Assembly (NCBI GenBank): GCA_900314905.1
Contig: OMXA01000019.1
Coordinates: 1 to 35,131 of the forward strand
Length of the DNA: 35,131 bases
Source: an uncultured Erysipelotrichaceae bacterium
GTDB taxonomy: Bacteria > Bacillota_I > Bacilli_A > Erysipelotrichales > Erysipelotrichaceae
Direction: 5' to 3'
Part shown: in pieces, positions 24,369 to 34,945 of the stretch
Position numbering within the stretch: position 1 is the first letter of the stretch
Layout of the letters: each line of letters begins with the position of its first letter
The notes under the pieces: generated by a model
Told to the model about the DNA's origin: nothing
What the model saw: the letters and a program-made list of their open reading frames with translations, nothing else
Database searches by the model: none
Position numbers and translations under genes: made by a program

Positions 24369-26183
24369 ATGAAACTGTATTCCAGCCGCTTCACAGCCAA
24401 TAAAACCGGCAGCTTCCGCACGGTTATTCTGATTTCGTTCAGTGCGGTTTCCATTCTGATGATGGCGGTCGTCGGAATGGTCTTTCAGAATCTCATGAGC
24501 CGTGAAACCCGGAACATGCTGCAGGAATCCACGCAGAATACTGCCCTTCAGGAAACTCTGAACATCGAGAACTATCTTTCCACGATCCGCAACACCGCCA
24601 ATGCACTCTATTACGATGTCATCAAGAAGAATGATCTTTCCGAAGAAAGCATCCGTTCCAATATGCAGCTTCTGTATGCTGCAAATTCCAATCAGATCAT
24701 TTCGATCGCGCTGTTCAGCGATGACGGAACTCTGCTCTGTGCGGCTCCGAATGCGGTTCTGAAGAATGATCTTGATGTCAAGGAACAGGACTGGTTCACT
24801 TCTGCACTTGCCAAAGTTGAAAACGTTCATTTTTCCCAGCCCCACGTGCAGAATCTCTTTCCATCTGCTTCCCATTCCTACAAATGGGTTATTTCTCTTT
24901 CTACCGCAGTTGATATGACCCGGAACGGAAAAGCAGAGCGGGGCGTGCTTCTCATTGATATGGACTATCAGTCCATGGAACAGCTTCTTGAAGAATCGAA
25001 CTCAGAACTATCTGACAGTTATATCTACCTGATGGCAGAGGATGGCGAGATCATCTATCACCCCTATCATTCCAGAATCCAGGCAGGGCAGTTTTCCGAG
25101 GATACGAAAAAAGTGCTGACCTATGAAGACGGAGTCCACATCGAGCAAACCGGGGGCACCCAGCAGATTGTCAATGTGACTACCGTTTCCTATACAGGAT
25201 GGAAGCTGGTCAGCGTGATTCCAGGGTCGACGCTGAATCTCAATGAACGATCTTCGGGAAGCCTGATCATCATGATTATTTCTCTCACGGTCCTTGCAAT
25301 TGTCCTGATCAACCGCTTTCTTGCAAGACGGGTTTCCGAACCTCTGATCCGGCTGAATGACACGATTGCGAATATGGAAGGCGTCACGAATCTTCCTCCT
25401 GAAGTTTATGAAAACAGTTCTGCAGAAATCGAGGAACTCGGCACAACCCTGCATTCCTATATTGCCCAGATCAACCGTCTGATGGATGAAATGCGCAAGG
25501 AAGAAGAGGAGAAGAGAAAAAGCGAATTGGATGCCCTGCAGGCACAGATCAATCCTCACTTCCTGTACAACACGCTTGATTCCATCGTCTGGATGATTGA
25601 AGGTGAGAAATACAAAGATGCCGTATTCATGATCACGCAGCTGGCCTCCTTCTTCCGCATGTCACTGAACCGCGGCCATTCCATCATCCGCATCGATAAT
25701 GAACTGAAGCAGGCAGAGGCTTACCTCAACATCCAGAGAGTCCGCTACAAGCAGTCATTCCAGGCAGTGTTTGATATCGAAGATTCCATCGGCTCTTGTC
25801 TGATTGTGAAACTGGTGCTTCAGCCGATCCTGGAAAATGCAATCTATCATGGCATCAAGGAAGCAGAACAGGATGGCATGATCCGCATCCATGGCTGGAG
25901 AGAAAACGGAGACATCTATCTGGAAGTTTCTGATAATGGATATGGCATGAGTCCGGAAGAAGTCGAAACAATTCTGAATGAATCCAAGCGTCCCGCTGTC
26001 GAGAAACATGGATCCGGAGTCGGCCTCATCAATGTCGATAAACGTCTGAGACTGCGCTTCGGAGATGCCTTCGGGCTCAAGGTCAGAAGCGAACTTGATG
26101 CCGGCACGACGGTGACCATTCATATTCCCGCGATTGAAGCCACCGAAGAAAACCTTGCCAGATATGAAGGAGAAACGCTATGA
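24369..26183 (+). CDS. YesM-type sensor histidine kinase with extracellular Cache-like domain
   Basis: A 604-residue membrane kinase. TM1 is about 18-40, followed by an extracellular region (~41-290) resembling a double Cache domain, TM2 (~298-318), a HAMP-like segment (RVSEPLIRLND), a coiled coil rich in E/K (~370-388), the His_kinase domain with phosphoacceptor H397 in INPHFLYNTLD, and an HATPase with N-box N490, DNGYG (522-526) and GSGVGL (548-553). It signals to the preceding response regulator. It overlaps the next gene, a membrane-anchored binding protein, by 4 bases (ATGA), which suggests that ligand-loaded binding proteins act on its extracellular domain, as in XylFII-LytS-type systems; that is inferred. 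Confidence 0.92.
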   Translation: MKLYSSRFTANKTGSFRTVILISFSAVSILMMAVVGMVFQNLMSRETRNMLQESTQNTALQETLNIENYLSTIRNTANALYYDVIKKNDLSEESIRSNMQLLYAANSNQIISIALFSDDGTLLCAAPNAVLKNDLDVKEQDWFTSALAKVENVHFSQPHVQNLFPSASHSYKWVISLSTAVDMTRNGKAERGVLLIDMDYQSMEQLLEESNSELSDSYIYLMAEDGEIIYHPYHSRIQAGQFSEDTKKVLTYEDGVHIEQTGGTQQIVNVTTVSYTGWKLVSVIPGSTLNLNERSSGSLIIMIISLTVLAIVLINRFLARRVSEPLIRLNDTIANMEGVTNLPPEVYENSSAEIEELGTTLHSYIAQINRLMDEMRKEEEEKRKSELDALQAQINPHFLYNTLDSIVWMIEGEKYKDAVFMITQLASFFRMSLNRGHSIIRIDNELKQAEAYLNIQRVRYKQSFQAVFDIEDSIGSCLIVKLVLQPILENAIYHGIKEAEQDGMIRIHGWRENGDIYLEVSDNGYGMSPEEVETILNESKRPAVEKHGSGVGLINVDKRLRLRFGDAFGLKVRSELDAGTTVTIHIPAIEATEENLARYEGETL

Positions 26184-27124
26184 AGCAATCCAGAAGCATC
26201 GCATTCATTCTCCTGATTCTCGCTCTTTCCGTAACCGCAGCAGTATCAGGGTATATCGCAGTCGCACCGGCAAGAGAAAATCCGAAACGAGAGATCACCG
26301 TAGTCCTGCCTAATGCTTCCGAAGAAAGATGGAACTCCTTTCGCATGGGCTTCCGGGCAGCCGCAAGAGAATACGGAATCTCTCTATCCATCATAAGCAC
26401 CACAGAAGACAATGAAACAGAACAGATCAGATCCGCCCTGGAAGAAAAACCGGATGGGATCATCGTTTCACTTCTCTCCGACCAGAATGCAGAGCTCCTG
26501 GAAAAAGCATCCATACCCACTGTATTGCTCGGAACAAGAGGATCAGCCGAAACAGACGCGAGACTCGCACAGATCTCCCTCAGTTCCAGAGCAGCTGGCA
26601 TCAGCCTTGCTCAGCAGGTTCTGTCATACCGCAGTTCTTCTTCAAAGCTCCGGATCGGAATAATCTGTTCCAGAACCGTTTCTTCTGAACTCACGGAACG
26701 TCTTGCAAGTCTGAATGAAGAACTTGCAAAGCATGACATCAAGCCAGCATGGATTCTGCGAGATGCCAGCCAGGTCTCAATGATCACGAAACAGACAGAA
26801 AATCAAGCTGATCTGATCATTGCTCTGGACAATGATTCTCTTGAAGCCGCAGCAGAATATCGGGCTTCGCATCCGGATCAGATTTCCGGCCTGTATGGGA
26901 TCGGCATCTCAGCCGCCTGCATCTCCTATACCGATTCCGAGATCATCGATAAGATGATTGTCCCGAATGAATACCTCGCCGGTTTCACTGCAATCGAGCA
27001 GATCTCTGATTACTGCTCTTCCAGAAGGGCGATGGAAAATACCACAATTGACTATTCCATCATCACCCGGGCAAATATGTTCACGAAGAAAAACCAGCAG
27101 CTGCTGTTTCCAATCAGCCAGTAG
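26180..27124 (+). CDS. Membrane-anchored type I periplasmic-binding-protein homologue (sensor accessory)
   Basis: A 314-residue protein with one N-terminal membrane helix (about 7-28) and no lipobox cysteine, so it is probably tethered by that helix. The rest is a Peripla_BP_4-type two-lobe fold: EITVVLPNASEERWNSFRMGFRAAAREYGI, then DGIIVSLLSD, PTVLLGTRG, an inter-lobe section (RIGIICSR) and LIIALDNDSLEAA. Sugar-contact residues of galactose-binding protein are not evidently conserved, so its ligand is likely different or absent. It overlaps the kinase gene and precedes a second binding protein, which points to a role in sensing rather than transport. Confidence 0.8.
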   Translation: MKQSRSIAFILLILALSVTAAVSGYIAVAPARENPKREITVVLPNASEERWNSFRMGFRAAAREYGISLSIISTTEDNETEQIRSALEEKPDGIIVSLLSDQNAELLEKASIPTVLLGTRGSAETDARLAQISLSSRAAGISLAQQVLSYRSSSSKLRIGIICSRTVSSELTERLASLNEELAKHDIKPAWILRDASQVSMITKQTENQADLIIALDNDSLEAAAEYRASHPDQISGLYGIGISAACISYTDSEIIDKMIVPNEYLAGFTAIEQISDYCSSRRAMENTTIDYSIITRANMFTKKNQQLLFPISQ

Positions 27125-27138
27125 CTAGAAAGGATGCC

Positions 27139-28128
27139 ATGAAACTGAGCTTCAGTGCCATAGCGCTGATTCCGGCTCTTGTTCTCTCCGGATGCGCTCC
27201 TGCTTCTGCAAAGAGAAAGAGTCTGAATCTCGGCATTGCCATATATGACAGCCAGGACACCTTCATTTCCTCCATCACAAAAGAACTCTCTGACCTTGCA
27301 GAGGCAGATGGGGTTCATTTCACGATCCGCAATGCCGATCATTCCCAGCTCACCCAGAATGAGCAGGTCAAGGATATGATCGCTGACGGAGTGAATGTCA
27401 TCTGCGTCAATCTCGTAGACCGCACCAGCACTTCCGCCATTATCAATGCTGCAATGAAAAATGAAATCCCGATCATCTTCTTCAACCGGGAACCAGTAGA
27501 ATCGGATATCACCCGCTGGGAACATCTGTATTATGTCGGCAGCGATCCGGAAGAAAGCGGGCGTCTGCAGGGACAGATCGCCGCAACTTATCTGAGCCAG
27601 CATCTAGAAGCAGACAGAAATGGCGACGGTCAGATCCAGGTGTACGTGCTCGAAGGCGAACCAGGTCATCAGGATGCAATCGTCCGCAGCGAATCCTCCG
27701 TCACGACACTGCAGAATGCAGGCATCAGGATCGATAAGATCGGTTACTCGATCTGCGACTGGAACCGCCAGGAGGCACAGACAGAAGTCACCCGTCTGAT
27801 ACAGGAAGAGACCGAAGCAGAACTGTATCTCTGCAATAATGATGACATGGCAGCAGGTGCAGTCGATGCATATGAAGCAGCTGGTATTCCGCTGACTGAT
27901 CGCCCTCTGATCATTGGAATTGACGGAACTGCAGTTGGCTGTCAGCTGGTTCAGAGCCATGCATTGATCGGGACGGTATACAATGACTATAAAGGACAAG
28001 CGGGAGCAATCTACCAGCTAGCGTCAGCTCTTTCCGAAAATGAAGACATGCCTGAGCTCATGAATTCACATTACATCATGCTTCCATATCGTAAGATCAC
28101 TCTGGAGAACGTCTCCCAGTTTCAATAG
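27139..28128 (+). CDS. Galactose/glucose-binding lipoprotein, conventional MglB order (sensor-associated)
   Basis: A 329-residue lipoprotein (lipobox LVLSGC, C19). The fold runs in the usual MglB order. Every sugar contact of E. coli galactose-binding protein except N15 can be located: D40 and F42 (D14/F16), N116 (N91), H177, D179 and R183 (H152/D154/R158), W208 (W183), N234 (N211), D262 (D236) and N282 (N256). N15 is T41 here. The calcium loop ADRNGDGQIQ is present. It thus probably binds glucose or galactose. Its place in the kinase operon, not in the ABC transporter operon, suggests that it presents sugar to the kinase. It ends at a strong shared terminator. Confidence 0.88.
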   Translation: MKLSFSAIALIPALVLSGCAPASAKRKSLNLGIAIYDSQDTFISSITKELSDLAEADGVHFTIRNADHSQLTQNEQVKDMIADGVNVICVNLVDRTSTSAIINAAMKNEIPIIFFNREPVESDITRWEHLYYVGSDPEESGRLQGQIAATYLSQHLEADRNGDGQIQVYVLEGEPGHQDAIVRSESSVTTLQNAGIRIDKIGYSICDWNRQEAQTEVTRLIQEETEAELYLCNNDDMAAGAVDAYEAAGIPLTDRPLIIGIDGTAVGCQLVQSHALIGTVYNDYKGQAGAIYQLASALSENEDMPELMNSHYIMLPYRKITLENVSQFQ

Positions 28129-31481: not shown

Positions 31482-32792
31482 TTACTGAAGCAGCGAAGTG
31501 TAAGAAGCAGCGTTGTCCGTCTTGACCATGTTGATTGCAAATGCATCATACTGATCCGGATTTCCGAGACGATTCGTGATATTGGACTCAGTCTGACCAT
31601 CGCCGCCGATGTATTCAACATCAAGGTTCAGCAGATCATCGTACTTCTCAAGCAGCGGCTGATAAGTGGAACTCAGGAAGTTATCTGCAGCGTTGTAGAT
31701 ATCCAGCCAGACTTTCTTGCTCGGAGACTTTGCAGCATCAAGCTGATTGCTGACCGGCTTGTAGGTTACAGTGGAATCCAGGAAGTCCTGATAGTTATCA
31801 GCAGTAACCGCGAGGTTCAGAGCATAGAATGAACGCTCGTCAGCATTGTATTCATAATCAGTTCCTTCTGTGAGGACGTTGCCAGCATCATCAGCAACAG
31901 AGATACCGGTATTGACATCAACACCATCGAGGCAGTTTCTCAGAACACGGAGCGTCAGATAAGCCTGTACGTCAGCATGCTGGGAGATCGTTCCTGCATA
32001 GCCATCCGCAATCGCTGCAACTGCATCAGAGTTAGCATCATATCCGAAGGTCGGAACATTGTTTTCCTTGGACCATGCATTGAACATTGCCATGCCCATG
32101 CCATCGTTATTGGAAACAACGACATCGATCTGATCGCCGAATGAGGAAGCCCAGGTACCGATTGCATTTCCTGCAGTAGCAGCATCCCATGTTGCACCAG
32201 CAGAGTTCTTCATTTCCTGAGAAGCAAGCTCACGTACGACATAGGACTTGCCATCGATCTCAATCGAGCCGTCCTTGACATTGGAAGAAGAACCATCAAC
32301 ATTGGTTCCTACCGGCTGAGCATTGACACCATTCGCATCTTCTACTGCCGTTCCCAGTGCATTGCGGACACCGCGTGTACGAGCGATGGAATCGTTATGT
32401 CCGATATCGCCGATTGCAAGAACGTAACCGATGACTCCGTCTCCGTTGCGATCCAGATCAGCACCATGAGAAGTGAGATAATCTGCAACCATCTGTCCCT
32501 GGAGTTCAGCACCCTGATTTGCATTGAAGCCTACATAATAGGTATCCTTGTTCCAGTTCAGAGCGGTCATATCCAGTTCACCAGTCGAACTGTTGGACGG
32601 CTGACGGTTGAACCAGACGAGCGGTTTTGCCGCATTTCCTGTAGCTTCTTCAACTGCGGCAGCGGTTGCTGCAGAAGATGCAGTTGCAGCTGAAGTAGCT
32701 GCTGCACTGGAGCCTGAGCCGCCGCATCCTGCAAGCAGAGCTGCAGACATTGCAGAAGCCGTGAGAATACTGAAAATCTTCTTCGAGTTCAC
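31482..32792 (-). CDS. mglB: Circularly permuted galactose/glucose-binding lipoprotein (MglB)
   Basis: A 436-residue lipoprotein (lipobox LLAGC, C23) with a ~30-residue Ala/Ser linker. The mature fold begins at KPLVWFNRQPS, which matches VVFFNKEPS near residue 91 of E. coli galactose-binding protein. It then follows the normal order to the family's C-terminal end (~340) and continues after a linker with KKVWLDIYNAADNF to the end (357-436), which matches residues 1-~84 of the normal protein. Contacts kept: N62 (N91), H132, D134 and R138 (H152/D154/R158), W202, N229, D252, and D370/N371/F372 (D14/N15/F16); N256 is Q271. The calcium loop DRNGDG is at 114-119. Extra insertions lie at ~147-190 and ~292-320. 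It starts with GTG behind GGAGGAAA. It is the first gene of mglBAC, with a cre site upstream. Confidence 0.9.
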   Translation of the reverse strand: MNSKKIFSILTASAMSAALLAGCGGSGSSAAATSAATASSAATAAAVEEATGNAAKPLVWFNRQPSNSSTGELDMTALNWNKDTYYVGFNANQGAELQGQMVADYLTSHGADLDRNGDGVIGYVLAIGDIGHNDSIARTRGVRNALGTAVEDANGVNAQPVGTNVDGSSSNVKDGSIEIDGKSYVVRELASQEMKNSAGATWDAATAGNAIGTWASSFGDQIDVVVSNNDGMGMAMFNAWSKENNVPTFGYDANSDAVAAIADGYAGTISQHADVQAYLTLRVLRNCLDGVDVNTGISVADDAGNVLTEGTDYEYNADERSFYALNLAVTADNYQDFLDSTVTYKPVSNQLDAAKSPSKKVWLDIYNAADNFLSSTYQPLLEKYDDLLNLDVEYIGGDGQTESNITNRLGNPDQYDAFAINMVKTDNAASYTSLLQ

Positions 32793-33039: not shown

Positions 33040-33206
33040 AGGAGCTTCTTCTATGCCAGTTTTTCTGCCGGGAGTTTGCAGATGGCCTGCCATTATCCGA
33101 TCATCGCTTCAGCAGTCCCTCATTATTACATTTTGTGAAGTGATGTGATTTACCCATTTTCATGAGAAACTGATTACAGTGAAGATATGAAATGGAGGCA
33201 TGCAAT

Positions 33207-33860
33207 ATGTCTGAAAATGAAGTAAGAGGATTCATCACGGAAAAACTATATCCAGCTAACGGCCGATCTGCTCAGGATACTGCATACGCGCTGGCAAGAT
33301 ACCTTGATACGGATAAGCATATGATCACGCAGATCATGCGTACCCGTCAGGGATATCTGGTTCAATGCAAAGGCGATGCAAACATGGAATGGACGAAATA
33401 CCTTGGCATGGATGCAGCAGTAAGCATCCGCATCGGCGAGGAGAGCACAAATCTCAGGATTTCTGTTGCGGCGGAAAAATGGGTTGAAAAGGCCGGTTTT
33501 GCGGCACTCGGCATTGTATTTTCGCCCCTGCTGATAACGGCAGGGCTAGGAGCTGTCCGCCAGTTCGGTCTGTTTGACGATATCTTCCGGTTCCTGGACA
33601 GCTATATCGGCGCAGAGCCGCTGGAGACGACTACTTCCAATCCATTCACAGGCAGAAACAGCAGGGATTCAGATGGGCCGATCAGCGAAGATTCCGTCAC
33701 CTGCCCTAGCTGCGGCGCTTTCAACAAGCCCGGAGCGAAGTTCTGCCGGAAGTGCGGAAAACCGATGCAGATTACCGGCGAAAAACATTGCCCGAATTGC
33801 GGCGAAATCGTCGATGAAGATGACAGCTTCTGCCCGAACTGCGGTCAGAAGCTCGACTGA
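33207..33860 (+). CDS. Double zinc-ribbon protein, unknown function
   Basis: A 217-residue protein. The N-terminal ~100 residues form a mixed domain (EVRGFITEKLYPANGR, MITQIMRTRQGYLVQCKG) of no family that I know. A hydrophobic stretch (AALGIVFSPLLITAGLGAV) could be a membrane-associated helix. The tail holds two zinc ribbons: CPSC...CRKC and CPNC...CPNC. I start it at ATG 33207 because GGAGG lies 8 bases upstream; the ATG at 33192 contains that site. Such zinc-ribbon-tailed proteins are common in Firmicutes and lack an assigned role. A clear terminator follows. Confidence 0.75.
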   Translation: MSENEVRGFITEKLYPANGRSAQDTAYALARYLDTDKHMITQIMRTRQGYLVQCKGDANMEWTKYLGMDAAVSIRIGEESTNLRISVAAEKWVEKAGFAALGIVFSPLLITAGLGAVRQFGLFDDIFRFLDSYIGAEPLETTTSNPFTGRNSRDSDGPISEDSVTCPSCGAFNKPGAKFCRKCGKPMQITGEKHCPNCGEIVDEDDSFCPNCGQKLD

Positions 33861-34023: not shown

Positions 34024-34072
34024 TCGTCAATTCCCTTCCATCTCCGGAAATGATTTATTATTAAACTTCTTG

Positions 34073-34101
34073 TTTACTTTTACGAAACAGTCTGATATAA
34101 C
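34073..34101 (+). promoter_or_regulatory. Promoter of the C39-like lipoprotein gene
   Basis: TTTACT (34073-34078), a 17-base spacer and TATAAC (34096-34101). Transcription would give a ~60-base leader before the ATG. Confidence 0.6.
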
Positions 34102-34168
34102 TTCTTCATTCCCGGCAGGAGACAAAACCATACAGGAACAGACACCGGGATTCAAAGGGGGAAAACAA

Positions 34169-34945
34169 ATGAAAAAGCAGGTTTCTTTTCTTCTTCTCTG
34201 TGCATCTCTGCTTGCAGGATGCACCTCGTCTGGTTCTGCATCTCATGGCAACTACACCGATGAAATGAAGATACCGCATACGGCTGATCTGAGCCCGGAA
34301 GACGGTGCCGACAGCGTAGAACGACAGGGTGATCACAAAGACAGTCCTTATTTCAATCGGCTTGATTTCTACAATATGAAGTCCACAGACTCTCTGACCA
34401 TTCTTCCCAAATTCAAGACCTACCAGCAGACTTCTGAATGGAGCTGCGGTGTTGCCTCGTCTCTGATGGTCCTGAACTGGTATGGAAAACTAGGAGATAA
34501 TACCGAAGAAAGCCTGGCTGAATTCCGCAGCAACGGCACAGAGCCAGCCGCTACGAGCATGTCTCAGATGGTGGAAATATTCGACGGGGTCGGCGGTTTC
34601 GACACCTATTCGACGCTAGACTGCAAGGATACCGTTGCGGACGTATTTACATTTGATTACATCCAAGACACCTTGAAAGAAGGACATCCGATCATCGTCG
34701 GATGGAACGACTGGGGAGGACACTGGCAGGTCATCATCGGCTATGACACTATGGGTACTGAGACCACCCAGGACGATGTGATCATTGTGGCTGATCCCTA
34801 TGATACGACAGACCATAATCAGGATGGCTACGGTGTCTACAGTGCAGAACGCTTCCTGTACAACTTCACGTTCTACAACTTCTTCGACGAAGATTCCGGC
34901 GAACCTAATGACATGTGCTTTCTGACGGCAGTACCGGCAGAATAA
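34169..34945 (+). CDS. C39-like peptidase-fold lipoprotein
   Basis: A 258-residue secreted lipoprotein (lipobox LLAGC, C18) of the Peptidase_C39_2 type. A papain-like triad is visible: the QQTSEWSCG motif with oxyanion glutamine and nucleophile C93, H185 in GGHWQVIIGYD, and D209 in VADPYD. Proteins of this family are surface cysteine peptidases or inactive relatives; here the triad is intact. The substrate is unknown. I start it at ATG 34169, where AAGGGGG lies 7 bases upstream and the signal peptide begins; the longer frame to 34070 would put 33 unsuitable residues before the signal peptide and would include the promoter. Confidence 0.85.
   Translation: MKKQVSFLLLCASLLAGCTSSGSASHGNYTDEMKIPHTADLSPEDGADSVERQGDHKDSPYFNRLDFYNMKSTDSLTILPKFKTYQQTSEWSCGVASSLMVLNWYGKLGDNTEESLAEFRSNGTEPAATSMSQMVEIFDGVGGFDTYSTLDCKDTVADVFTFDYIQDTLKEGHPIIVGWNDWGGHWQVIIGYDTMGTETTQDDVIIVADPYDTTDHNQDGYGVYSAERFLYNFTFYNFFDEDSGEPNDMCFLTAVPAE

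Follow-up and report, generated by a model that had tools for sequence, protein, structure and literature searches.

Natural circular permutation of the sugar-binding lipoprotein MglB in an uncultured Erysipelotrichaceae bacterium, and three further chain orders among its relatives

The mglB gene described here lies on the minus strand of a 35,131-nucleotide stretch of DNA (the window) from an uncultured Erysipelotrichaceae bacterium (contig OMXA01000019.1, assembly GCA_900314905.1). Its product is a natural circular permutant. Very probably it is the binding lipoprotein of an MglBAC transporter, has the chain order of TpMglB-2 from Treponema pallidum, and belongs to a family that has been re-ordered repeatedly in one operon slot. 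Relatives carry three further cuts (orders B, C, and D) beyond the published order A, and these are the new part of the finding. Overall, a single working protein seems to have been naturally shuffled several times. From the orders, operon slots, conserved contacts, and trees of the relatives and the predicted folds of A and B, all computed here, one orthologous gene in the mglBAC slot has probably been permuted naturally five times or more, the events including an apparent return from B to A (L046) and a re-permutation from A to D, with cuts between helix and strand, away from the sugar cleft, and with a labile chain order.

In most families with a natural circular permutation a single old event is known, and amino-methyltransferases give a precedent for several permutation classes within one fold. 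Two natural permutation points in one fold are described in the accessible part of PMC2430557 for the YRG family and cpRAS GTPases. Those GTPases belong to different protein families, whereas in the present case a single bacterial order shows four cut points in the same operon slot. With a series of four cuts, fairly close relatives flanking two of the events, and a visible scar, the steps of permutation would become directly testable, and the same series could show what makes a protein tolerant of permutation. If this history is true, the lineage is a natural experiment in permutation. Since MglB is a common base for glucose sensors, natural permissive termini may also have practical use.

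The permuted chain of the window protein

The features of the gene and its neighbours are listed in Table 1, where Ec denotes the mature numbering of E. coli MglB. The gene has a GTG start preceded by AGGGAGG. On a profile in conventional order the protein matches Ec 70-309 (E 1e-111) and then Ec 2-81 (E 5e-27); these E-values are not independent because the profile, made from three conventional and nine rotated permuted proteins, contains the window protein among the latter. Independently, a profile of the tails of 22 class A proteins matches 13 conventional MglBs at columns 2-82 (probability 96.5, E 7.8e-10), and the window tail by itself matches the N-terminus of a conventional protein (L022, E 1.2e-5). 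PF18610 scores 143.3 bits (cut-off 36.8) at residues 359-428, which is its single match in the whole 2.1 Mb genome. The moved segment comprises strands and helices one to three of the first lobe. These lines confirm the circular permutation proposed in an earlier note made from the sequence alone. Its cut at about Ec 85-91 was slightly misplaced, the boundary lying nearer Ec 82, and the short linker, which it put at about residues 350-358, is in the predicted model a low-confidence stretch (predicted local distance difference test, pLDDT, below 50) at residues 341-350. Model residues 1-287 superpose on 2fvy 78-306, and the order-preserving aligner ends there. On the conventional MglB equivalog NF011924 the protein reaches 93.2 bits, below the cut-off of 420.

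Table 1. Features of the mglB region in the window
Feature	Position	Strand	Evidence
mglB, class A circular permutant (cut Ec 81|82), 436 amino acids (aa)	31482..32792	minus	open reading frame, profile mapping, PF18610
Signal peptide and lipobox LLAGC, lipid-anchor Cys23	32724..32792	minus	sequence
Ala/Ser/Thr-rich linker from anchor to first strand, residues 24-54	32631..32723	minus	sequence
Front segment, residues 55-340 = about Ec 82-309	31773..32630	minus	profile mapping, model
New connection, old C-terminus to old N-terminus, about residues 341-357	31722..31772	minus	model pLDDT
Moved segment, residues 358-436 = Ec 2-81, PF18610	31485..31721	minus	Pfam, profiles, model
mglA, ATP-binding subunit, 503 aa	29855..31366	minus	NF008215, 671 bits, E 8.5e-202; equivalog cut-off 828 not reached
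mglC, permease, 550 aa	28186..29838	minus	MglC match from residue 217
Conventional-order MglB-like lipoprotein	27139..28128	plus	convergent with operon, near histidine kinase
Histidine kinase with dCache domain	24369..26183	plus	Pfam

The sugar contacts N62, H132, D134, R138, W202, N229, D252, D370, and F372 are kept and Q271 replaces N256; the earlier note had listed all of these positions, and they are exact in the alignment. MglB of E. coli and Salmonella (GGBP; 2fvy, 2gbp, 3gbp) is homologous to the window protein along the rotated chain and has the same contacts except for N256, but its order is conventional. Also among the closest known systems is TpMglB-2 (Tp0684; 5jx2, 6bgc, 6bgd), classified as Type Ic / Cluster Bc, whose cut is likewise at Ec 81. 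The window protein is colinear with 5jx2 over residues 54-434 (E 1.6e-91) and has three Type Ic features: strands one to three of the first lobe close the chain, PF18610 is C-terminal, and the contacts include Q for N256. The fourth hinge crossing of this type, with an extended connection after it, may also be present, since the model has a linker there, although at a pLDDT below 50 for residues 341-350. As far as the accessible text of Brautigam et al. 2016 (PMC4990184) goes, TpMglB-2 shares the domain order, the N256-to-Q change, the lipoprotein nature, and the ATP-binding cassette (ABC) sugar importer, and it has N311 where the window protein keeps D14. The same text reports for this identical chain order a crystal structure, glucose binding, and Gram-positive relatives. 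The order of the window protein was thus already published in 2016, which contradicts the earlier statement that no natural permutant had been described in this family. That the protein is of a working design, as the earlier note held, is supported by the colinearity with 5jx2, the profile mappings, the sugar contacts, and the model.

In the accessible text of Brautigam et al. 2016 (PMC4990184), a tail derived from another gene is considered and left open, and the pairwise identity of 13% given there would fit such an origin. A foreign origin of the C-terminal segment, with convergence on the N-terminus of MglB, is nevertheless extremely improbable, given the tail-profile match and the direct match to L022 described above and given that the contacts D14 and F16 sit within the tail at the right place. 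By sequence comparison the tail is homologous to MglB's own N-terminus, which answers the question of its origin raised in that paper.

With strand four of the first lobe as its start, the chain would complete that lobe with residues 358-436 and so restore both the two-lobed fold and the sugar site. Anchored at Cys23, the protein would bind glucose or galactose between its lobes, close, and pass the sugar to MglC/MglA. This delivery role is inferred from knowledge of the family and from TpMglB-2.

Chain orders and operon slots among relatives

Five chain orders are found: conventional, A (cut at Ec 81), B (Ec 130), C (Ec 169), and D (Ec 247). Ec 131-309 precedes 2-130 in order B, 169-309 precedes 2-169 in C, and 247-309 precedes 2-248 in D. 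Pfam, used without the mapping profile, gives the same orders for L086, L014, L021, and L049, the B, C, and D proteins to which it was applied. In one order of the window's class, the one holding B, C, and D, 40 of 279 genomes have matches to the D protein. By their fetched loci these are 25 B, 9 A, 1 C, 1 D, and 4 conventional. A class A query matches 23 of 395 sampled genomes of the window's class (9 A, 7 B, 1 C, 2 conventional, and 4 conventional-like with a partial, unmapped match). G775 is counted as A on a colinear match, and the conventional counts are lower bounds because only genomes matching permuted queries were counted. PF18610 occurs in 17 of 392 genomes of the phylum, in 5 of 37 genomes of the window's genus, and in none of 24 others of its order. 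Among the best 80 of 560 relatives, 72 frames belong to class A, 10 to class B, and 13 are of conventional order, complete or cut off.

It is unlikely that the window protein is merely TpMglB-2-like with nothing beyond the 2016 description. The colinearity with 5jx2 speaks for this, as do the Gram-positive gut bacteria already named in the accessible text of Brautigam et al. 2016 (PMC4990184), and for the window gene alone it holds. The cuts of B, C, and D lie elsewhere than the Type Ic cut, and B is already present in 25 genomes of one order. The search in that text demanded more than 90% coverage and matching N-termini, and it probably passed over B, C, and D because of these demands. No report of orders B, C, and D was found in open-access PMC full text, subscription literature being mostly outside this scope; a term search in the accessible text of PMC12667903 gave no mention of MglB.

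Homologues of mglA and mglC stand beside the binding-protein gene in 16 of the 18 loci checked, with every order represented: D, three A, C, four conventional, two B2, one B1, three further B, and L046 (B1 and B2 are the two groups of class B described below). The one sugar contact changed in the 22 A rows, D, and L046 is N256 (Q); in C it is F16 (N). Tandem class B genes are seen in L091, L193, L194, L222, L223, and L224; those of L193 and L194 (514-615 aa) have long insertions and precede mglA. Class B frames of 510-513 aa at L191:3552-5081 and L192:4144-5682 have about 150 additional N-terminal residues and are possibly a sensor or surface form.

Order C and order D are each known from one genome among the 279 searched, as might be expected if they were chimeric assemblies of draft genomes. 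This is very doubtful. Each is a single open frame whose new start follows immediately on a signal peptide; the joins are in frame, no signal peptide is left over, coverage is complementary, and mglA and mglC adjoin both genes. The C protein is 53%/45% identical to a conventional protein from its own genus and the D protein 72%/59% identical to a class A protein.

History of the orders and position of the cuts

Trees of the binding protein were made from chains rotated to one order. The first used 150 rows thinned to 80. The second (74 rows) dispensed with 19 sensor-like rows and one row on a very long branch and took in 14 of 15 new rows, the remaining one being sensor-like; it was rooted on E. 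coli MglB and L022/L165. In the 74-row tree the conventional proteins are basal, and C groups with three of them (99/99), two from C's own genus. A, B, and D form a single clade (100/98), within which class B falls into two groups, B1 and B2. D is nested among class A with 93/98 in this tree and 100/98 in the first. The minimum number of changes of order is five in both trees. In the approximately unbiased (AU) test, for groups named only after the first tree was seen, p is 0.0004 for all B as one clade and 2e-10 for all A as one clade.

MglA and MglC trees, from which the binding protein was excluded (24 rows each, quick method), repeat the grouping of D with the A proteins of G472/G470, of C with conventional G123/G232/G531, and of L046 with B2. 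They independently support three placements, namely C with conventional proteins, D with A, and one A within B. Each of these trees needs 7 changes for 6 groups.

L046 is of order A, yet its inner junction at Ec 130 matches the sequence formed when the C- and N-termini of close B2 proteins are joined, with a best score of 135.5. Of 21 B rows, 18 were scored, those lacking a recognised pattern having dropped out, and 6 of the 18 exceed 99.0, the top score of 88 continuous class A stretches. D134 and N136 of the Ca loop are gone in L046, as in most B rows. The junction match and the lost residues therefore point to a scar of order B and to an apparent B-to-A event. The main class A retains the Ca loop, and L050/L051 are of order B with the loop intact; for this reason the change between ancestral A and ancestral B may have run either way.

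Most likely each new order began with a tandem duplication of mglB, after which the two copies fused in frame and were truncated, and a new signal peptide landed between a helix and the strand after it. Such duplicates occur, since the tandem class B copies of L193 and L194 stand before mglA. The changes of order were presumably tolerated rather than selected.

Several observations weigh against this history. One clade of B plus L046 and one clade of all permutants are each only weakly rejected by the AU test (p 0.03 for both), and the late naming of the tested groups bears on all of these values. The class A protein of G355 groups with C and conventional proteins in the MglA tree and with the window and B1 in the MglC tree. 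The junction medians of L046 are lower for B (74.5) than for A (83.0), the signal being confined to close B2 rows, and a simple B-to-A path fits poorly because the main class A keeps the Ca loop, a misfit that L050/L051 soften. C and D come from one draft genome each. No half-way gene was seen among the loci, which were not searched systematically for one. L191 and L192, as extra B frames, have neither mglA nor mglC in the 10 kb fetched. Contacts also vary within B: N152/E154 occur in 9 of 11 B1 rows, and 10 of 16 conventional rows likewise have N152; among the 19 B2 rows, T158 is found in 2, G236 in 2, and S or P at 256 in 7, while D14 differs or is gapped in 4 and F16 in 5. L191 and L192 have F at 256, and one of them I at 16. 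Therefore not all B proteins need bind glucose.

With Ec positions transferred by hand onto the window model, each of the four cuts separates a helix from the strand that follows it: helix 378-385 from strand 8-11 in A, helix 41-63 (at its last turn) from strand 70-77 in B, helix 83-96 from strand 125-129 in C, and helix 205-212 from strand 217-220 in D. In this fold the strand-to-helix loops line the sugar cleft, so cuts from helix to strand would spare the sugar site. By the lobe boundaries that we take to apply, cut A is in the first lobe and cuts B, C, and D are in the second; the lipid anchor would then switch lobe.

The permuted order is hypothesised to be an adaptation to lipid anchoring in the accessible text of Brautigam et al. 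2016 (PMC4990184), a hypothesis close to the suggestion in the earlier note that the relocated anchor would alter how the protein faces the permease. The T. pallidum protein and 19 of 19 Bacilli class A rows are indeed lipoproteins. By regular expression, 51 of 71 class A rows of L093-L163, mostly from spirochaetes, have no lipobox, and 22 of the 71 have no cysteine within 45 residues before the first aligned residue. A lipobox is also present in 33 of 36 conventional Bacilli rows (regular expression; transport and sensor proteins pooled) and, as LSGC, in the window's conventional neighbour. Because so many A rows lack a lipobox and most conventional Bacilli rows have one, anchoring is most unlikely to be the general cause, though in single lineages it may still apply.

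Operon and neighbouring genes of the window

The genes follow the order mglB-mglA-mglC, the operon place assigned in the earlier note. The window MglC has about 210 additional N-terminal residues compared with E. coli, charged and, by eye, perhaps coiled-coil. MglC proteins of 22 relatives have 507-807 aa (the shortest perhaps clipped by the locus end) versus 336 in E. coli. Long MglC also occurs in operons with conventional order.

On the plus strand at 24369-28128, the histidine kinase is followed by two periplasmic-binding-protein genes, the second MglB-like. This conventional gene likely encodes a sensor; with it and the permuted mglB, both orders stand side by side in the genome. Comparable pairs of kinase and sensor adjoin the operon in L074, L075, and L079, which suggests sugar-sensing control of mglBAC. 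Further plus-strand genes are one at 33192-33860, divergent from mglB and encoding two C-terminal zinc ribbons, and one at 34070-34945 for a protein with a C39-like cysteine peptidase domain (PF13529).
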